DNA of 21,295 nt from a virus. Below, piece by piece: positions 686 through 9,597 of the stretch (within the stretch, counting starts at the first letter, position 1; each line of letters starts with the position of its first letter). The stretch spans positions 1-21,295 of the IMG/VR virus record IMGVR_UViG_3300039191_000071; one strand, 5' to 3'. A program made the position numbers and the translations under genes. The notes under the pieces are model-generated. The model saw only the letters and a program-made list of their open reading frames with translations, searched no databases and was not told the DNA's origin.

Positions 686-855
686 ACATCACCCGCCCGC
701 GCAAGTCGCGCATTCTTGAAAAGGCTGGTCTGCGGTATCTCGCGGCTTGGCTTTCTGCCGAAACCGTTGAGGCGTTGCATTCTGAAATTGAAGAGACAGA
801 GGCTAAGGTAGCCGTAGAGCTGGCGAAAGCAGTCGGGGGCGCGAAAGATGAATGA
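682..855 (+). CDS. Small hypothetical protein (57 aa), coupled to its neighbour
   Basis: I chose the GTG at 682 because it overlaps the preceding TGA (683-685) in the GTGA arrangement seen repeatedly in this window; an in-frame ATG at 652 would cost a 34-bp overlap. The N-terminus is basic (NITRPRKSRILEK) and the C-terminal half is a Glu/Ala-rich predicted helix (SAETVEALHSEIEETEAK). The stop overlaps the next gene by 8 bp. No family is recognised. Basic N-terminus plus helical tail would suit a small nucleic-acid or protein-binding accessory factor, but that is a guess. Confidence 0.5.
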   Translation: MNITRPRKSRILEKAGLRYLAAWLSAETVEALHSEIEETEAKVAVELAKAVGGAKDE

Positions 856-1471
856 TCTAAGCGTTAAACGTGATAATGTAACACGCGAGTTTCGTCATGG
901 AACGCGGGGCGAGAGTGCCGCCCGCTGCATCGGTGAAATATCAAGGGATTGCGATGTGTTCGGCCTGACTAAAGGCGACTTTTCGATGATTGATATTTTG
1001 CGCCATATCGCCAAGCAGATTGGCCCATGCCGTATTGACATAGGCACATGGACGGCGGCGGCGGCGGACATCAAGCAGGCGTTCACGATGCTTGAGGATA
1101 AGAACATCGTAACGATGCGCTGGCTTGTGGATCGCAGCTTTCCGGCGCGTCAGGGCAAATACTACGCCAATTTGTTGGAGAAGTTTGGGCGCGACAGTGT
1201 GCGGCTGGCACGGTTTCACGCCAAATTTATACTGCTTGAAAACGACGATTACAGCGTAGCGGTTCGCACGTCGATGAATCTGAACGAAAACAAGCGGATT
1301 GAGTTTTTTGAAATCAGCGAGGGCAGCCCGATTAGCGGATATCTAAAGCAGGTTGTTGATTTTCATTTCGACAAGCCCTCTGAGGATAGCTATTCGGCGT
1401 TTAAGGAATTTGACATTACGCAACAGAAAAAGGCCCAGCCGGAAAAGGCGAGGCTTGGGGGCTGGGATTAA
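848..1471 (+). CDS. Phospholipase-D-like (single HKD) phage protein, 207 aa
   Basis: Residues about 34-155 resemble a single PLD-like domain. The first half has the alternating beta/helix pattern with CRIDIGTWTAAAADI (61-75). The second half has H124-x-K126 in ARFHAKFILLEN, then TSMNLN (141-146) followed by ENKRIEFFEI. This matches the order of an HKD motif (HxK...GSxxN), with Glu/Asn where the usual Asp falls and Thr-Ser in place of Gly-Ser. Proteins with one HKD normally act as dimers and are often nucleases or phosphodiesterases. The start overlaps the previous gene by 8 bp and the stop directly abuts the small terminase ATG. I infer a packaging- or DNA-related role; it could also be catalytically reduced. 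Confidence 0.65.
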   Translation: MNDLSVKRDNVTREFRHGTRGESAARCIGEISRDCDVFGLTKGDFSMIDILRHIAKQIGPCRIDIGTWTAAAADIKQAFTMLEDKNIVTMRWLVDRSFPARQGKYYANLLEKFGRDSVRLARFHAKFILLENDDYSVAVRTSMNLNENKRIEFFEISEGSPISGYLKQVVDFHFDKPSEDSYSAFKEFDITQQKKAQPEKARLGGWD

Positions 1472-1834
1472 ATGGCAAAGCAAGGCGCGATCTACAAGCC
1501 AACAGACGCAGATCGTTCGTTTGTTGAAAGGGCGGTGATGGCAGGCACGACGATTGAGAAAATATCGGAGTGCCTGAATATCCACAAAGACACGCTTGGC
1601 AAGCATTATCGTTATGAAATAATGACTGCCCGCGAAAGCATGAAGGGCCAGGCCGTGCGCGTTCTAATGGACAGCCTTACCGACAACAGCCTGGACGCGG
1701 CGAAGTATGTCCTGAGCCGCGTGGCGGGATGGACGGAAAAGAGCGTTGTGGATAACAAGCACGACATATCTGACCCGATGATCGAACTCCTCAAGCATGT
1801 GGCGGGCAATGGCAAACGTATCGGCGAAGATTAA
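1472..1834 (+). CDS. terS: Terminase small subunit (putative), 120 aa
   Basis: Residues about 22-47 form a helix-turn-helix of the terminase small-subunit/resolvase type (GTTIEKISECLNIHKDTLGK), followed by a helical segment ending in DAAKYVLSRVAGWTEK, which is typical of small terminase proteins. It recognises the packaging site and delivers DNA to the large subunit. The gene starts immediately after the PLD-like stop (TAA then ATG) and overlaps the large terminase gene by up to 38 bp. Length and position just before terL support the call. Identity as TerS rests on position and HTH rather than on a strongly diagnostic motif. Confidence 0.75.
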   Translation: MAKQGAIYKPTDADRSFVERAVMAGTTIEKISECLNIHKDTLGKHYRYEIMTARESMKGQAVRVLMDSLTDNSLDAAKYVLSRVAGWTEKSVVDNKHDISDPMIELLKHVAGNGKRIGED

Positions 1835-3302
1835 GGGTCAGTTCGCCGATCCCCTTTGGCGACTGCACAACCTCTACGACATCGTAGACAAGCGCGGCCA
1901 CGTCATTCGGTTTACGCCCAACCCTCAACAGCTTGACTATCTGCTGAACATTCATGGCCGCGACATCGTGCTAAAGGCGCGCCAGCTTGGATTCACAACG
2001 CTGGCCGCGATTGTAGCGCTGGATGAATGCGTTTTTACGCCAAACTGGTCAGCTGCGATCATCGCGCACACCAAGGCCGACGCACAGAAGATCCTCAAGA
2101 CAAAGGTACGGTTCCCCTACGATAACCTCCCGGAAGGCATCAAGAACGCCTGCCCGCTGGTTAATGACGCAGCCGACACGCTGGCGATGGCGAACAATAG
2201 CAGCGTAGTGGTGACATCATCCGCACGCGGCGGCACGCTGCAACGCTTGCACGTTTCGGAATTTGGCAAGATCTGCGCGCGATACCCGGACAAGGCCGAT
2301 GAGATCATCAGCGGATCGTTCCCGGCGGCGGAAAACGGTCACATCACAATCGAAAGCACCGCAGAAGGGCAAGATGGCGCGTTCTACCGCATGACGCAGG
2401 AGGCGCTTGAAAAGGAAGCCAAGGGCGAGGCTCTAAGCCCGCTCGACTGGCGCATTCACTTCTACCCTTGGTATGACAATCCAGACTATCAAACCGCGCC
2501 CGAGCTTGTGCGGGTCACGGAAGCTGACACTAAATACTTCGAAAACCTCAAATACGACGAGGGCATAGAGTTGGACGCAGGCCAAAAGGCTTGGTGGGTC
2601 CAGCAGGAAAAGACGCAGGGCGGCAAGATGAAGCGGGAATACCCCGCAACGCCGCGCGAGGCCTTTGAGCAGGCGCTTGAGGGCGCGTACTTCGAGCAAG
2701 AAATAGCGCACACGATCAAGCGCGACGGCATTGGCGCATTTCCATTTGATCCGCGCCACCAGGTCAACACCTTCTGGGACTTGGGGCGCAATGACCAGAC
2801 GGCGATCTGGCTGCATCAAGACATCAATGGGCGCGACCGGTGGATCGGCTATTATGAAAACAGCGGAGAGCACATCAGCCACTATTTGAACTGGCTCAAG
2901 GACTGGCTCAAGCAGCGCGAAGCCGGATGGGGCGACCACTACTGGCCTCACGATGGCGCGCGCGAGGATTTGTTTCTGGAGAATGGGCGGCTTGGCGAGG
3001 TTAAGGCGATGGGCTTTACGCCTAAAATCGTTCCCCGCGTGTCTGACAAGATCCTGGCGATTGAAGCGTCCCGCTCAGCGTTCCCGAACAGTGATTTTGA
3101 CGCGGTAGCCTGTGAGTTGGGACTCAAGCGGCTGAGGCACTACCGCAAAGAGTGGGATGATCGGCGCGGGGTTTGGAAAGACCGTCCGATGCACGACATC
3201 AACAGCAACGGCGCTGACGCCTACATGACATTTGCGACGGGCTACAAACGCCAGTCGGGATGGAAGGCGCCGCCGCGCAGGAACCTACAGGGGATTGCTT
3301 AG
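1797..3302 (+). CDS. terL: Terminase large subunit (ATPase/nuclease), 501 aa
   Basis: This is the packaging motor. The N-terminal ATPase has an adenine-contact segment (PNPQQLDYLL, 41-50), a Walker-A-like loop KARQLGFTT (60-68), a Walker-B-region strand RLHVSEFG (150-157), and the coupling motif ESTAEG (186-191). The C-terminal RNase-H-like nuclease carries acidic residues in WDLG (327-330), PHDG (384-387) and NGADAYMTFA (471-480). The length is normal for the family. The longest start is used; ATG 1809 (MANVSAK) is equally plausible because neither has a convincing Shine-Dalgarno, which suggests coupling to terS. The conservative residues at all motor positions indicate an active enzyme. Confidence 0.93.
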   Translation: MWRAMANVSAKIKGQFADPLWRLHNLYDIVDKRGHVIRFTPNPQQLDYLLNIHGRDIVLKARQLGFTTLAAIVALDECVFTPNWSAAIIAHTKADAQKILKTKVRFPYDNLPEGIKNACPLVNDAADTLAMANNSSVVVTSSARGGTLQRLHVSEFGKICARYPDKADEIISGSFPAAENGHITIESTAEGQDGAFYRMTQEALEKEAKGEALSPLDWRIHFYPWYDNPDYQTAPELVRVTEADTKYFENLKYDEGIELDAGQKAWWVQQEKTQGGKMKREYPATPREAFEQALEGAYFEQEIAHTIKRDGIGAFPFDPRHQVNTFWDLGRNDQTAIWLHQDINGRDRWIGYYENSGEHISHYLNWLKDWLKQREAGWGDHYWPHDGAREDLFLENGRLGEVKAMGFTPKIVPRVSDKILAIEASRSAFPNSDFDAVACELGLKRLRHYRKEWDDRRGVWKDRPMHDINSNGADAYMTFATGYKRQSGWKAPPRRNLQGIA

Positions 3303-3905
3303 ATGGCCTTATCGACATTCGCAGAACTGCAAGCGTCCATCGCGTCATGGCTTGACCGGGACGACCTGACTGCGGTGGTCAAAGACTTCATCACAATCGC
3401 AGAGGCTCAATTTCAGCGCGATGTGCGGCACCGCAGCATGGTGGCGAGCGCTGATCTAGCGATTGCCGCGCGGTTCGTTGATCTGCCCGCTGACCACATC
3501 AAAACTATTCGGCTGGACTGCGACGGCAACCGCCTGACTGCCATCAGCACAGACGACATGATTGACCGACGCGACAAAGGCACCGCAGGCGGCCAGCCTC
3601 GCAACTACGCCCCGATAGGCGTGCAGGTGGAGATATTCCCAACGCCCGCCGATAGCTACACCGGCACGCTGCAATACTACCGCAAGATCCCGGCGCTATC
3701 GGATGCGGCCCCGACGAATTGGTTGCTGGAAGTAGCGCCAGATGCGTACCTTTATGGATCACTGATCCACGCAGCACCGTTCCTAGTCGAGGACATGCGG
3801 CTTCAAACGTGGTCCGGGCTGTATTCTGCGGCGGTTTCAAACCTGAACGCCGCTGACAATGCCGGTCAGTGGGGCGGCAACCTCGTAATCCCTGCGCGGA
3901 GATAA
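3303..3905 (+). CDS. Neck/head-tail adaptor protein, SU10/podovirus type, 200 aa
   Basis: The N-terminal pattern (FAELQASIASWLDRDDLTA, then a helix with DFITIAEAQFQRDVRH) is the hallmark of the podoviral adaptor family that docks under the portal and completes the neck. The central beta-rich part has a DLPADHIKTIRL strand, and a late helix carries LLEVAPDAYLYGSLIHAAPFL, also typical. The ATG directly follows the terL stop. In most podoviruses this gene is close to the portal; here the portal is about 10 kb downstream. I am confident of the family; the structural position in the virion is inferred from relatives. Confidence 0.8.
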   Translation: MALSTFAELQASIASWLDRDDLTAVVKDFITIAEAQFQRDVRHRSMVASADLAIAARFVDLPADHIKTIRLDCDGNRLTAISTDDMIDRRDKGTAGGQPRNYAPIGVQVEIFPTPADSYTGTLQYYRKIPALSDAAPTNWLLEVAPDAYLYGSLIHAAPFLVEDMRLQTWSGLYSAAVSNLNAADNAGQWGGNLVIPARR

Positions 3906-3909
3906 ACAC

Positions 3910-5271
3910 ATGGCGACTTATTCAACCTCACTCGCGGTAACGCTACAAGCGGACGCCGCCAACTCGAACACATGGGGCGCTGTTGCCAACGGGGTTTTTG
4001 CGCAACTCGATGAAGCAATCGGGCAGTTTGCATCTATTGCGATTACGGGCGACGCGTCGCTGGTTATCACGGACGGCACGGCAAGCGCGGGCAGCAGCAA
4101 TCAAGCGCGCAAGGCGTTGCTGATCCTGACCGGAACGCCCGGCGCAGGCTTCACGCTGACGATGCCGGAAGTCCAGAAGGGCTGGGTATTCTACAACAAC
4201 TCAGACAGCACCGCGACGATCACAACCTCTACAGGCACCACGACTGTTGCTATCGAGGCGAACGTGTTTTGCAGCGTCTACGCGGACGGCGCGGGCAATG
4301 TCTACCAGACCAGCCACAAGATCACCGAGGACGGCAAGCAACTGGCCCCAACCGTGTCTGGAACGCTTGCCGCAGAAGACGATGTAACGGTCGGCGGAAC
4401 GCTGGCGGTGACTGGCACTACCACGCTTTCGGGCATATCCTACCCGACATCTGACGGGGCCGACACGCAGGTTCTGCGAACAGACGGCGCGGGCAATCTT
4501 ATCTTTGCGACGGTATCGGGCGGCGGCAATGTTCTTGGCCCCGCGTCGTCTATAGATGGCGGGATGGCGGCGTTTGACGGGACGAGCGGCACGCTGCTCA
4601 AAGCAGGCGTTGTACCTACTGCCACCAAAACCACCTATCTCACATCTACAACTTGGACCAAACCAGCCGGGGCTAAGTTTGTTATTATTGAGGCTTGGGG
4701 TGGCGGTGTAGGGGGGCAAGGTGCAAGCGCCGCACCGGGAAAAGGGGGCGGCGGCGGCGGTTACGTTAGCATTTCCATTCCTGCGGATGATCTTGCAGAA
4801 AGCGTTGCAATCACAATTGGCGCGGGTGGTGCTGGCGGAACAGGTGTTGATGGGAGCAACAGCACCGTTGACCCCGGCGGCGCTGGTGGAAACACCTCGT
4901 TTGGATCACTTTTAACTGCCTTTGGTGGCACTGGTACGACTTCCGGCAGCTTTGCTCTTGAAAACATTCCGGATTTCCACGGCGGTGGCGGTGGCGCAAT
5001 TGGACGTAGCGGCGGTGCGGCAATTAAAGGCGGTGGTGGTGGTGGTGGCGGGGGAAGCACAACTGCCAGCGCGGGAGGCGCATCGGCACTCGGGGGCAAT
5101 GGCGGCGCTAGTGGGGCGCAACCTTTGAATTCAGGTACGGACGGATCTAACGGGGTTGTCCCCGGCGGCGGTGGTGGTGGCGGAGGACAAGCTACCGGAA
5201 TTTCTTCATTCACTGCTGGCGATGGCGGCAATGGCGCTGCCGGTCAAGTTACCATCACAGTAATCACATAA
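3910..5271 (+). CDS. Tail fibre/receptor-binding protein with glycine-rich tip, 453 aa
   Basis: Shine-Dalgarno GGAG (3898-3901) precedes ATG 3910. Residues 1-140 form a Ser/Thr/Ala-rich, probably beta-sandwich attachment domain (NTWGAVANGVFAQLDEAIG is a common phage-fibre opening). Residues about 148-240 contain the spacer VSGTLAAEDDVTVGGTLAVTGTTTLSG, as found in fibre shafts. From about 245 comes a Gly-rich domain beginning TWTKPAGAKFVIIEAWGGG, with at least seven runs of 4-9 glycines to the C-terminus. This matches the phage 'glycine-rich domain' in which Gly-runs pack as a polyglycine-II-like tip and the loops between them contact the receptor. The following gene looks like its assembly partner. 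Confidence 0.85.
   Translation: MATYSTSLAVTLQADAANSNTWGAVANGVFAQLDEAIGQFASIAITGDASLVITDGTASAGSSNQARKALLILTGTPGAGFTLTMPEVQKGWVFYNNSDSTATITTSTGTTTVAIEANVFCSVYADGAGNVYQTSHKITEDGKQLAPTVSGTLAAEDDVTVGGTLAVTGTTTLSGISYPTSDGADTQVLRTDGAGNLIFATVSGGGNVLGPASSIDGGMAAFDGTSGTLLKAGVVPTATKTTYLTSTTWTKPAGAKFVIIEAWGGGVGGQGASAAPGKGGGGGGYVSISIPADDLAESVAITIGAGGAGGTGVDGSNSTVDPGGAGGNTSFGSLLTAFGGTGTTSGSFALENIPDFHGGGGGAIGRSGGAAIKGGGGGGGGGSTTASAGGASALGGNGGASGAQPLNSGTDGSNGVVPGGGGGGGGQATGISSFTAGDGGNGAAGQVTITVIT

Positions 5272-8586: not shown

Positions 8587-9596
<1,010 letters not shown>

Positions 9597-9597
<1 letters not shown>

Follow-up and report, generated by a model that had tools for sequence, protein, structure and literature searches.

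The stretch of viral DNA that we analyzed (IMG/VR record IMGVR_UViG_3300039191_000071, positions 1 to 21,295; hereafter the window, 21,295 nt) carries a predicted nuclease gene of the PLD superfamily directly ahead of its terminase genes. This gene (848-1471, plus strand) starts with ATG and encodes 207 aa with a single HKD motif. It is preceded in the same operon by two small plus-strand ORFs of 66 aa (485-685) and 67 aa (652-855) and is followed, without any gap, by a plus-strand ORF of 120 aa (1472-1834). We call the latter TerS because of its position and because its C-terminal tail (DNKHDISDPMIELLKHVAGNGKRIGED; 1736-1834) is common to the Sf6-type TerS of two other loci, L261 and L262. 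Its first ~88 codons (1472-1735) form a head with a helix-turn-helix. The structural model of TerS had a pLDDT of 75 and gave a best VIA Z of 5.8, to Sf6 TerS, which is not decisive; Foldseek returned nothing under E 0.001 for this model. The large terminase TerL (501 aa; PHROG 26724/2472/2) is encoded at 1797-3302 on the plus strand. By eye, it retains its acidic motifs, which argues against a degenerate TerL nuclease for which the PLD protein would compensate.

Ahead of the operon, a perfect 16-nt palindrome (ACGTTACGCGTAACGT; 418-433) lies between promoter-like hexamers that were recognized by eye. It is the only perfect palindrome of at least 14 nt in the window. Related palindromes or half-sites were found 350-660 nt ahead of the PLD gene in several relatives: palindromes of 24 nt and 14 nt in L017 and L020, and half-sites in L003, L007, L008, L012, L018, and L069. 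Judging from these sequences, the palindrome is probably an operator; the flanking hexamers make this a simpler reading than a packaging site, a role that it may nonetheless have. The upstream non-coding DNA also contains a 29-nt direct repeat (97-125 and 231-259, 76% identical). Searches of the window for tRNAs and Rfam families gave no match. Further downstream, an ORF of 453 aa in the structural region (3910-5271) contains many glycine runs, and an ORF of 336 aa (8587-9597) contains a long glutamine run.

In a profile search, residues 19-178 of the PLD protein matched PHROG_16945 ("endonuclease", E = 2.2e-36), and the 207-aa protein had no match in Pfam, NCBIfam, or PADLOC. Neither profile nor structure comparison yielded an HNH match. 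Using tblastn, we found the gene in 59 phage records, chiefly of Arthrobacter (37) and Gordonia (16) phages, most of which already label it a NucT-like nuclease or an endonuclease; "NucT-like nuclease" is the name given to PHROG_16945 members in actinophages. The annotations that we found in the literature for the phage NucT-like nuclease or PHROG_16945 are similarity-based only and we found no published function, nor did we find anything relevant on NucT-like proteins or PLD together with terminase. The original prediction, that such nucleases are not a textbook component of packaging operons, holds, with the qualification that most of these records already annotate a nuclease at this place. 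A total of 258 PLD loci were fetched, repeat fetches of the same contigs included, from hosts of several phyla. They were reduced to 110 representatives at 70% identity, which form 39 clusters at 50%. One locus, L042, is without a PLD ORF and is thus outside every PLD count, and the PLD ORFs of L025 and L150 are broken.

The AlphaFold2 model of the window's PLD protein reached a mean pLDDT of 90.2 and a pTM of 0.86. Its input alignment (A4) comprised 107 sequences: that of the window protein plus 106 homologues 24-75% identical to it, drawn from the 110 representatives minus L150, which is partial, and minus the loci fetched as annotated regions. With VIA-align, the model was closest to NucT (6ehi; Z 13.3, rmsd 2.6, 137 aligned), SauUSI (7clg; Z 13.1, rmsd 3.0, 146 aligned), and Nuc (1byr; Z 13.0, rmsd 2.6, 136 aligned); BfiI gave Z 11.1. 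Foldseek ranked SauUSI, NgoAVII, polyphosphate kinase, BJ-TSA-9, and NucT at the top, and it matched the window protein to its counterpart in phage Galaxy with an E of 3.6e-17. Together with the PHROG_16945 match, the predicted fold bears out the single-HKD PLD-like protein proposed from the sequence alone.

The same prediction had described an HKD-like center made of H124-x-K126 and TSMNLN, and both elements are present, as H124-A-K126 (HAKF) and T141-S-M-N-L-N (RTSMNLNENKRIE). The catalytic tetrad formed by H124, K126, N144, and E152 (codons at 1217-1219, 1223-1225, 1277-1279, and 1301-1303, plus strand) is unchanged in 107 of the 107 aligned sequences, as are G43, G59, and D95, and the pattern HxK-x17-N-x7-E occurs in 257 of the 258 fetched loci. 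The patterns used to scan for homologues included N144 and omitted the HxK histidine (the scan of bacterial genomes did use HAKF), so the conservation of this histidine in the pattern-found set is not a search artefact. Both points on which the original prediction could have failed, a fold unlike PLD and a lack of conservation of H124 and K126 among homologues, thus came out in its favor. It had also noted a replaced Asp and a Thr in place of Gly. The substitutions are real (Glu131 at K+5 and Thr141 at the Gly position of "GS") but they do not indicate decay, as this loss is typical of the family: the column of the canonical Asp is variable (R 33, K 16, T 13, and S 13, among others), the Gly is Thr or Ser, and the spacing is longer, such that the canonical Nuc/NucT signature HxK(x)4D(x)6GSxN (PMC5714352) is not matched. 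Its predicted fold and its tetrad place the window protein in the PLD superfamily, outside this canonical signature. Within the clade of the window, the median dN/dS was 0.05 for PLD (from the 36 of 136 pairs whose dS was usable) and 0.13 for TerS (39 of 136 pairs). The unchanged tetrad and this strong purifying selection led us to reject a degenerate, inactive protein. PLD enzymes of the NucT kind are described as dimers that form a phosphohistidine intermediate (PMC5714352), and BfiI as a restriction enzyme of the PLD type that needs no metal and forms a covalent intermediate (PMC4081073). The window protein is most likely a metal-independent nuclease, although a putative one.

The position directly upstream of the terminase, first noted for the window, turned out to be a property of the whole family. 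Neighboring genes were called with HMMs that we built from the neighbor families and labelled according to PHROGs. In 100 of the 110 non-redundant loci, terminase genes are no more than about 6 kb from PLD, the length of the fetched stretch: TerL is downstream on the same strand in 73, TerS alone was found in 18, and TerL is upstream or on the opposite strand in 9. The HMMs gave no terminase match in nine loci, one of which (L044) has annotated terS and terL genes, and one further locus offered too little sequence. The TerL types are diverse, with PHROG_9 at 39 loci, PHROG_15 at 12 (and 5 divergent ones), PHROG_2 at 11, and PHROG_38 at 6. All 24 loci from bacterial genomes look like prophages, since the stretch fetched for each includes a terminase-like gene. 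Phages phi16, Andrew, and Microcystis phage Mea-Yong924-1 have PLD immediately before terS, and three small genes separate the two in Francois. In BT-TP2, PLD instead comes after the portal gene, and in L023 and L024 it has no adjacent recognized TerS. Overall, 56 of 113 PLD ORFs are immediately followed by TerS, against 1 of 159 ORFs belonging to ten other neighbor families, a modest control given that several of these families are structural genes that normally come after TerS. In Galaxy (L286/L287), two predicted small-terminase genes have been reported, gene 54 adjoining the PLD nuclease and gene 2 adjoining TerL, with an HNH gene at the right end.

The association appears to be with the TerS head in particular. 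Among 18 sets from the window clade (26 sets before near-identical PLDs were dropped; L011 had no TerL ORF), PLD similarity followed the similarity of the TerS head (rho = 0.83, a value reached by 0 of 2000 permutations) and not that of TerL (rho = -0.04, 1268 of 2000 permutations as high). The TerS tail follows TerL instead (rho = 0.36, 1 of 2000 permutations as high). Adjacency by itself yields some co-inheritance of PLD and TerS through linkage. A search with TerS returned 33 loci. In the 26 that are 44% identical or more, PLD always lies upstream, adjacent in 25 and at 738 nt in one, and the seven distant relatives, one of which is a match of 29 residues, have none. Across the window clade this head, at 44-78% identity, is followed by a TerL of type 2, type 38, or the window's own type; in most members the TerS match ends near residue 95. 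The match between L001 and the window is likewise confined to 848-1757, that is, PLD and the TerS head. A distant relative of the head in an Acinetobacter phage has another gene upstream in place of PLD: in phage Bphi-R1888 (L289, 1303-2496), the slot is taken by what by eye is a ParB/DNA-methyltransferase-like gene, which overlaps the start of the TerS-head relative.

The loci L261 and L262 reveal an exchange of this unit with a breakpoint inside terS. They share with the window 97.8% DNA identity over 1736-3306 (the end of terS and terL) and upstream blocks that are 96-98% identical (from 73 or 114 to 176, and about 328-378). In place of the window segment 379-1735, which comprises the two small ORFs, PLD, and the initial 88 codons of terS, both loci have an Sf6-type TerS head (PF20901, E = 8.7e-44) and no PLD. 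Because this TerL evidently works with an Sf6-type TerS and without PLD, TerL itself does not need PLD. No PLD was detected in the fetched stretches of 22 TerL relatives, some of which start at or just before TerL, or in the fetched regions of three named relatives. Two other differences separate these genomes: about 1.1 kb after terL (L261 2187-3273, also in L262) is missing from the window, and the L261 match breaks off near position 4838, inside the glycine-rich ORF.

Two lineages have PLD fused to parts of TerS. In L147, a single ORF of 446 aa that overlaps a PHROG_15-type TerL combines PLD (95-263) with a match to the TerS family PHROG_57 (323-426, E = 2e-10); this fusion was seen in one contig and a search for relatives returned only that contig. 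An attempt to read its N-terminus as a Nu1-like TerS helix-turn-helix failed (score 6.2 against top shuffled scores of 8.5, 8.1, and 5.5 in 500 shuffles), such that the C-terminal match alone stands as its likeness to TerS. In a second group (L218/L221/L226, L216, L227, and L097), PLD carries a C-terminal extension that, among the ORFs examined, is found elsewhere only in the 3' part of the L094 TerS (E = 3e-14), whose front part is Terminase_4 (PF05119, E = 1.3e-14). A search for PF05119 itself gave no hit in L218, L227, L216, L097, and L147 and did give hits in the six other PLD records covered. The L147 and L218 tails had no match in the phage collection. The C-terminal extension of L047 was also considered as a TerS part and gave no match.

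Co-inheritance with TerS, the cassette swap, and the fusions favor DNA processing during packaging among the three functions that had been proposed from the sequence; nothing was found in support of the other two, host DNA degradation and defense or counter-defense, and PADLOC detected no defense system component. We therefore propose, with a probability of about 60%, that the PLD nuclease acts with the DNA-recognition half of TerS in genome packaging. The machinery by which phages package DNA thus probably includes this nuclease as a component that has been overlooked. The TerS head would bind the packaging site and, through contact with it, a PLD dimer in which two HKD half-sites form one active site would nick or trim the DNA at this site through phosphohistidine chemistry that needs no metal, after which the TerS tail would pass the DNA end to TerL. 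We infer the contact, the dimer, the cutting, its substrate, and the step of action. More tentatively, and as something we hold possible without expecting it, PLD and the TerS head may constitute an interchangeable specificity module of the packaging motor that both recognizes and cuts the packaging site through covalent phosphohistidine chemistry and can be exchanged for an Sf6-type head on the same TerL, in which case a swap may switch between headful and cos packaging.

The chief rival, which we consider unlikely, is that PLD is a stand-alone endonuclease of the homing type that propagates by cleaving terS alleles without PLD, the swap and the TerL mosaic being co-conversion tracts. The breakpoints in terS and in upstream non-coding DNA between flanks of 96-98% identity fit this view. 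PLD is missing from L261 and L262, there as part of an allelic swap. Homing-type nucleases are described as having a hot spot upstream of the terminase, and the HNH protein of HK97 as open to homing and terminase-partner readings, which are not mutually exclusive (PMC10448857). Against homing, PLD is ahead of four TerL types in hosts of several phyla, its dN/dS is low and its tetrad intact, it is retained by all 26 close TerS relatives, and it is fused with TerS parts in two lineages. Conservation, fusions, and purifying selection thus favor, rather than prove, a working part over a selfish one. Moreover, we know of no homing enzymes of the PLD type.

Somewhat less probable still is a strict equivalence with HNH proteins, in which PLD would replace the HNH terminase partner and make the cos cut. 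Kala and colleagues reportedly described such HNH partners, of the HK97 gp74 type, in 2014. HNH genes were detected in at least 22 of the 110 PLD loci (a lower bound, since the HNH profiles were built from the same loci), always with a type 9 TerL where TerL was seen downstream; none was seen with types 2, 15, or 38, which agrees with a replacement. The co-occurrence of both nucleases, including in Galaxy, Andrew, and Francois, where HNH lies close to cos or the right end, indicates that PLD is not simply an HNH replacement and weakens the idea of an exclusive substitute; another nuclease may cut cos in these three phages. The HK97 HNH is described as acting with terminase in cos cleavage in vitro (PMC10448857). 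The genome ends of BetterKatz (10 bases; PMC5559632), Galaxy (12 bases; PMC5513430), and phi16 (14 nt; PMC5506516), the three PLD phages whose ends were found in print, are all 3' cohesive. This is weak support, as such ends are common anyway (28 of 47 Gordonia rows examined; PMC5559632). Least probable of all is an accessory nuclease for host DNA degradation, rival exclusion, or defense or counter-defense that rides in the late operon: PLD nucleases do serve restriction systems, the best fold matches include SauUSI and NgoAVII, and the Galaxy TerS adjoining PLD may be an extra DNA-targeting partner, but the tight coupling to the TerS head, the cassette swap, the fusions, and the lack of a PADLOC match argue against it.

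If the packaging role that we favor is correct, phage packaging would employ a second nuclease chemistry, without metal and with a covalent histidine intermediate, and the role of the widespread "NucT-like nuclease" would be explained. TerS would also divide into two modules that can be separated, a head that recognizes DNA and has its own nuclease, and a tail that binds TerL. The window and L261, being nearly identical, offer a ready genetic test.

The window protein shares its single-HKD fold and the invariant H and K with NucT of Helicobacter pylori and with Nuc (1byr). In contrast to the NucT motif HxK(x)4D(x)6GSxN (PMC5714352), the window protein has a K-to-N spacing of 18, no Asp conserved at this place in its family, and RTSMNLN in place of GSxN, and NucT, which serves purine salvage and transformation, has no terminase neighbor. 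BfiI (PMC4081073), SauUSI, and NgoAVII similarly cut DNA with a PLD fold coupled to a DNA-recognition part; the window protein, which is 13-20% identical to such restriction enzymes (VIA-align), lacks both a restriction and an ATPase domain, and the part that recognizes DNA would in its case be TerS, either as a protein of its own or fused to PLD. HNH terminase partners are also encoded beside the terminase but are unrelated in fold and chemistry. Finally, the phage "NucT-like nuclease" (PHROG_16945) and the window's PLD protein belong to the same, already annotated gene family; what is new is its genomic context, the pairing with terminase.
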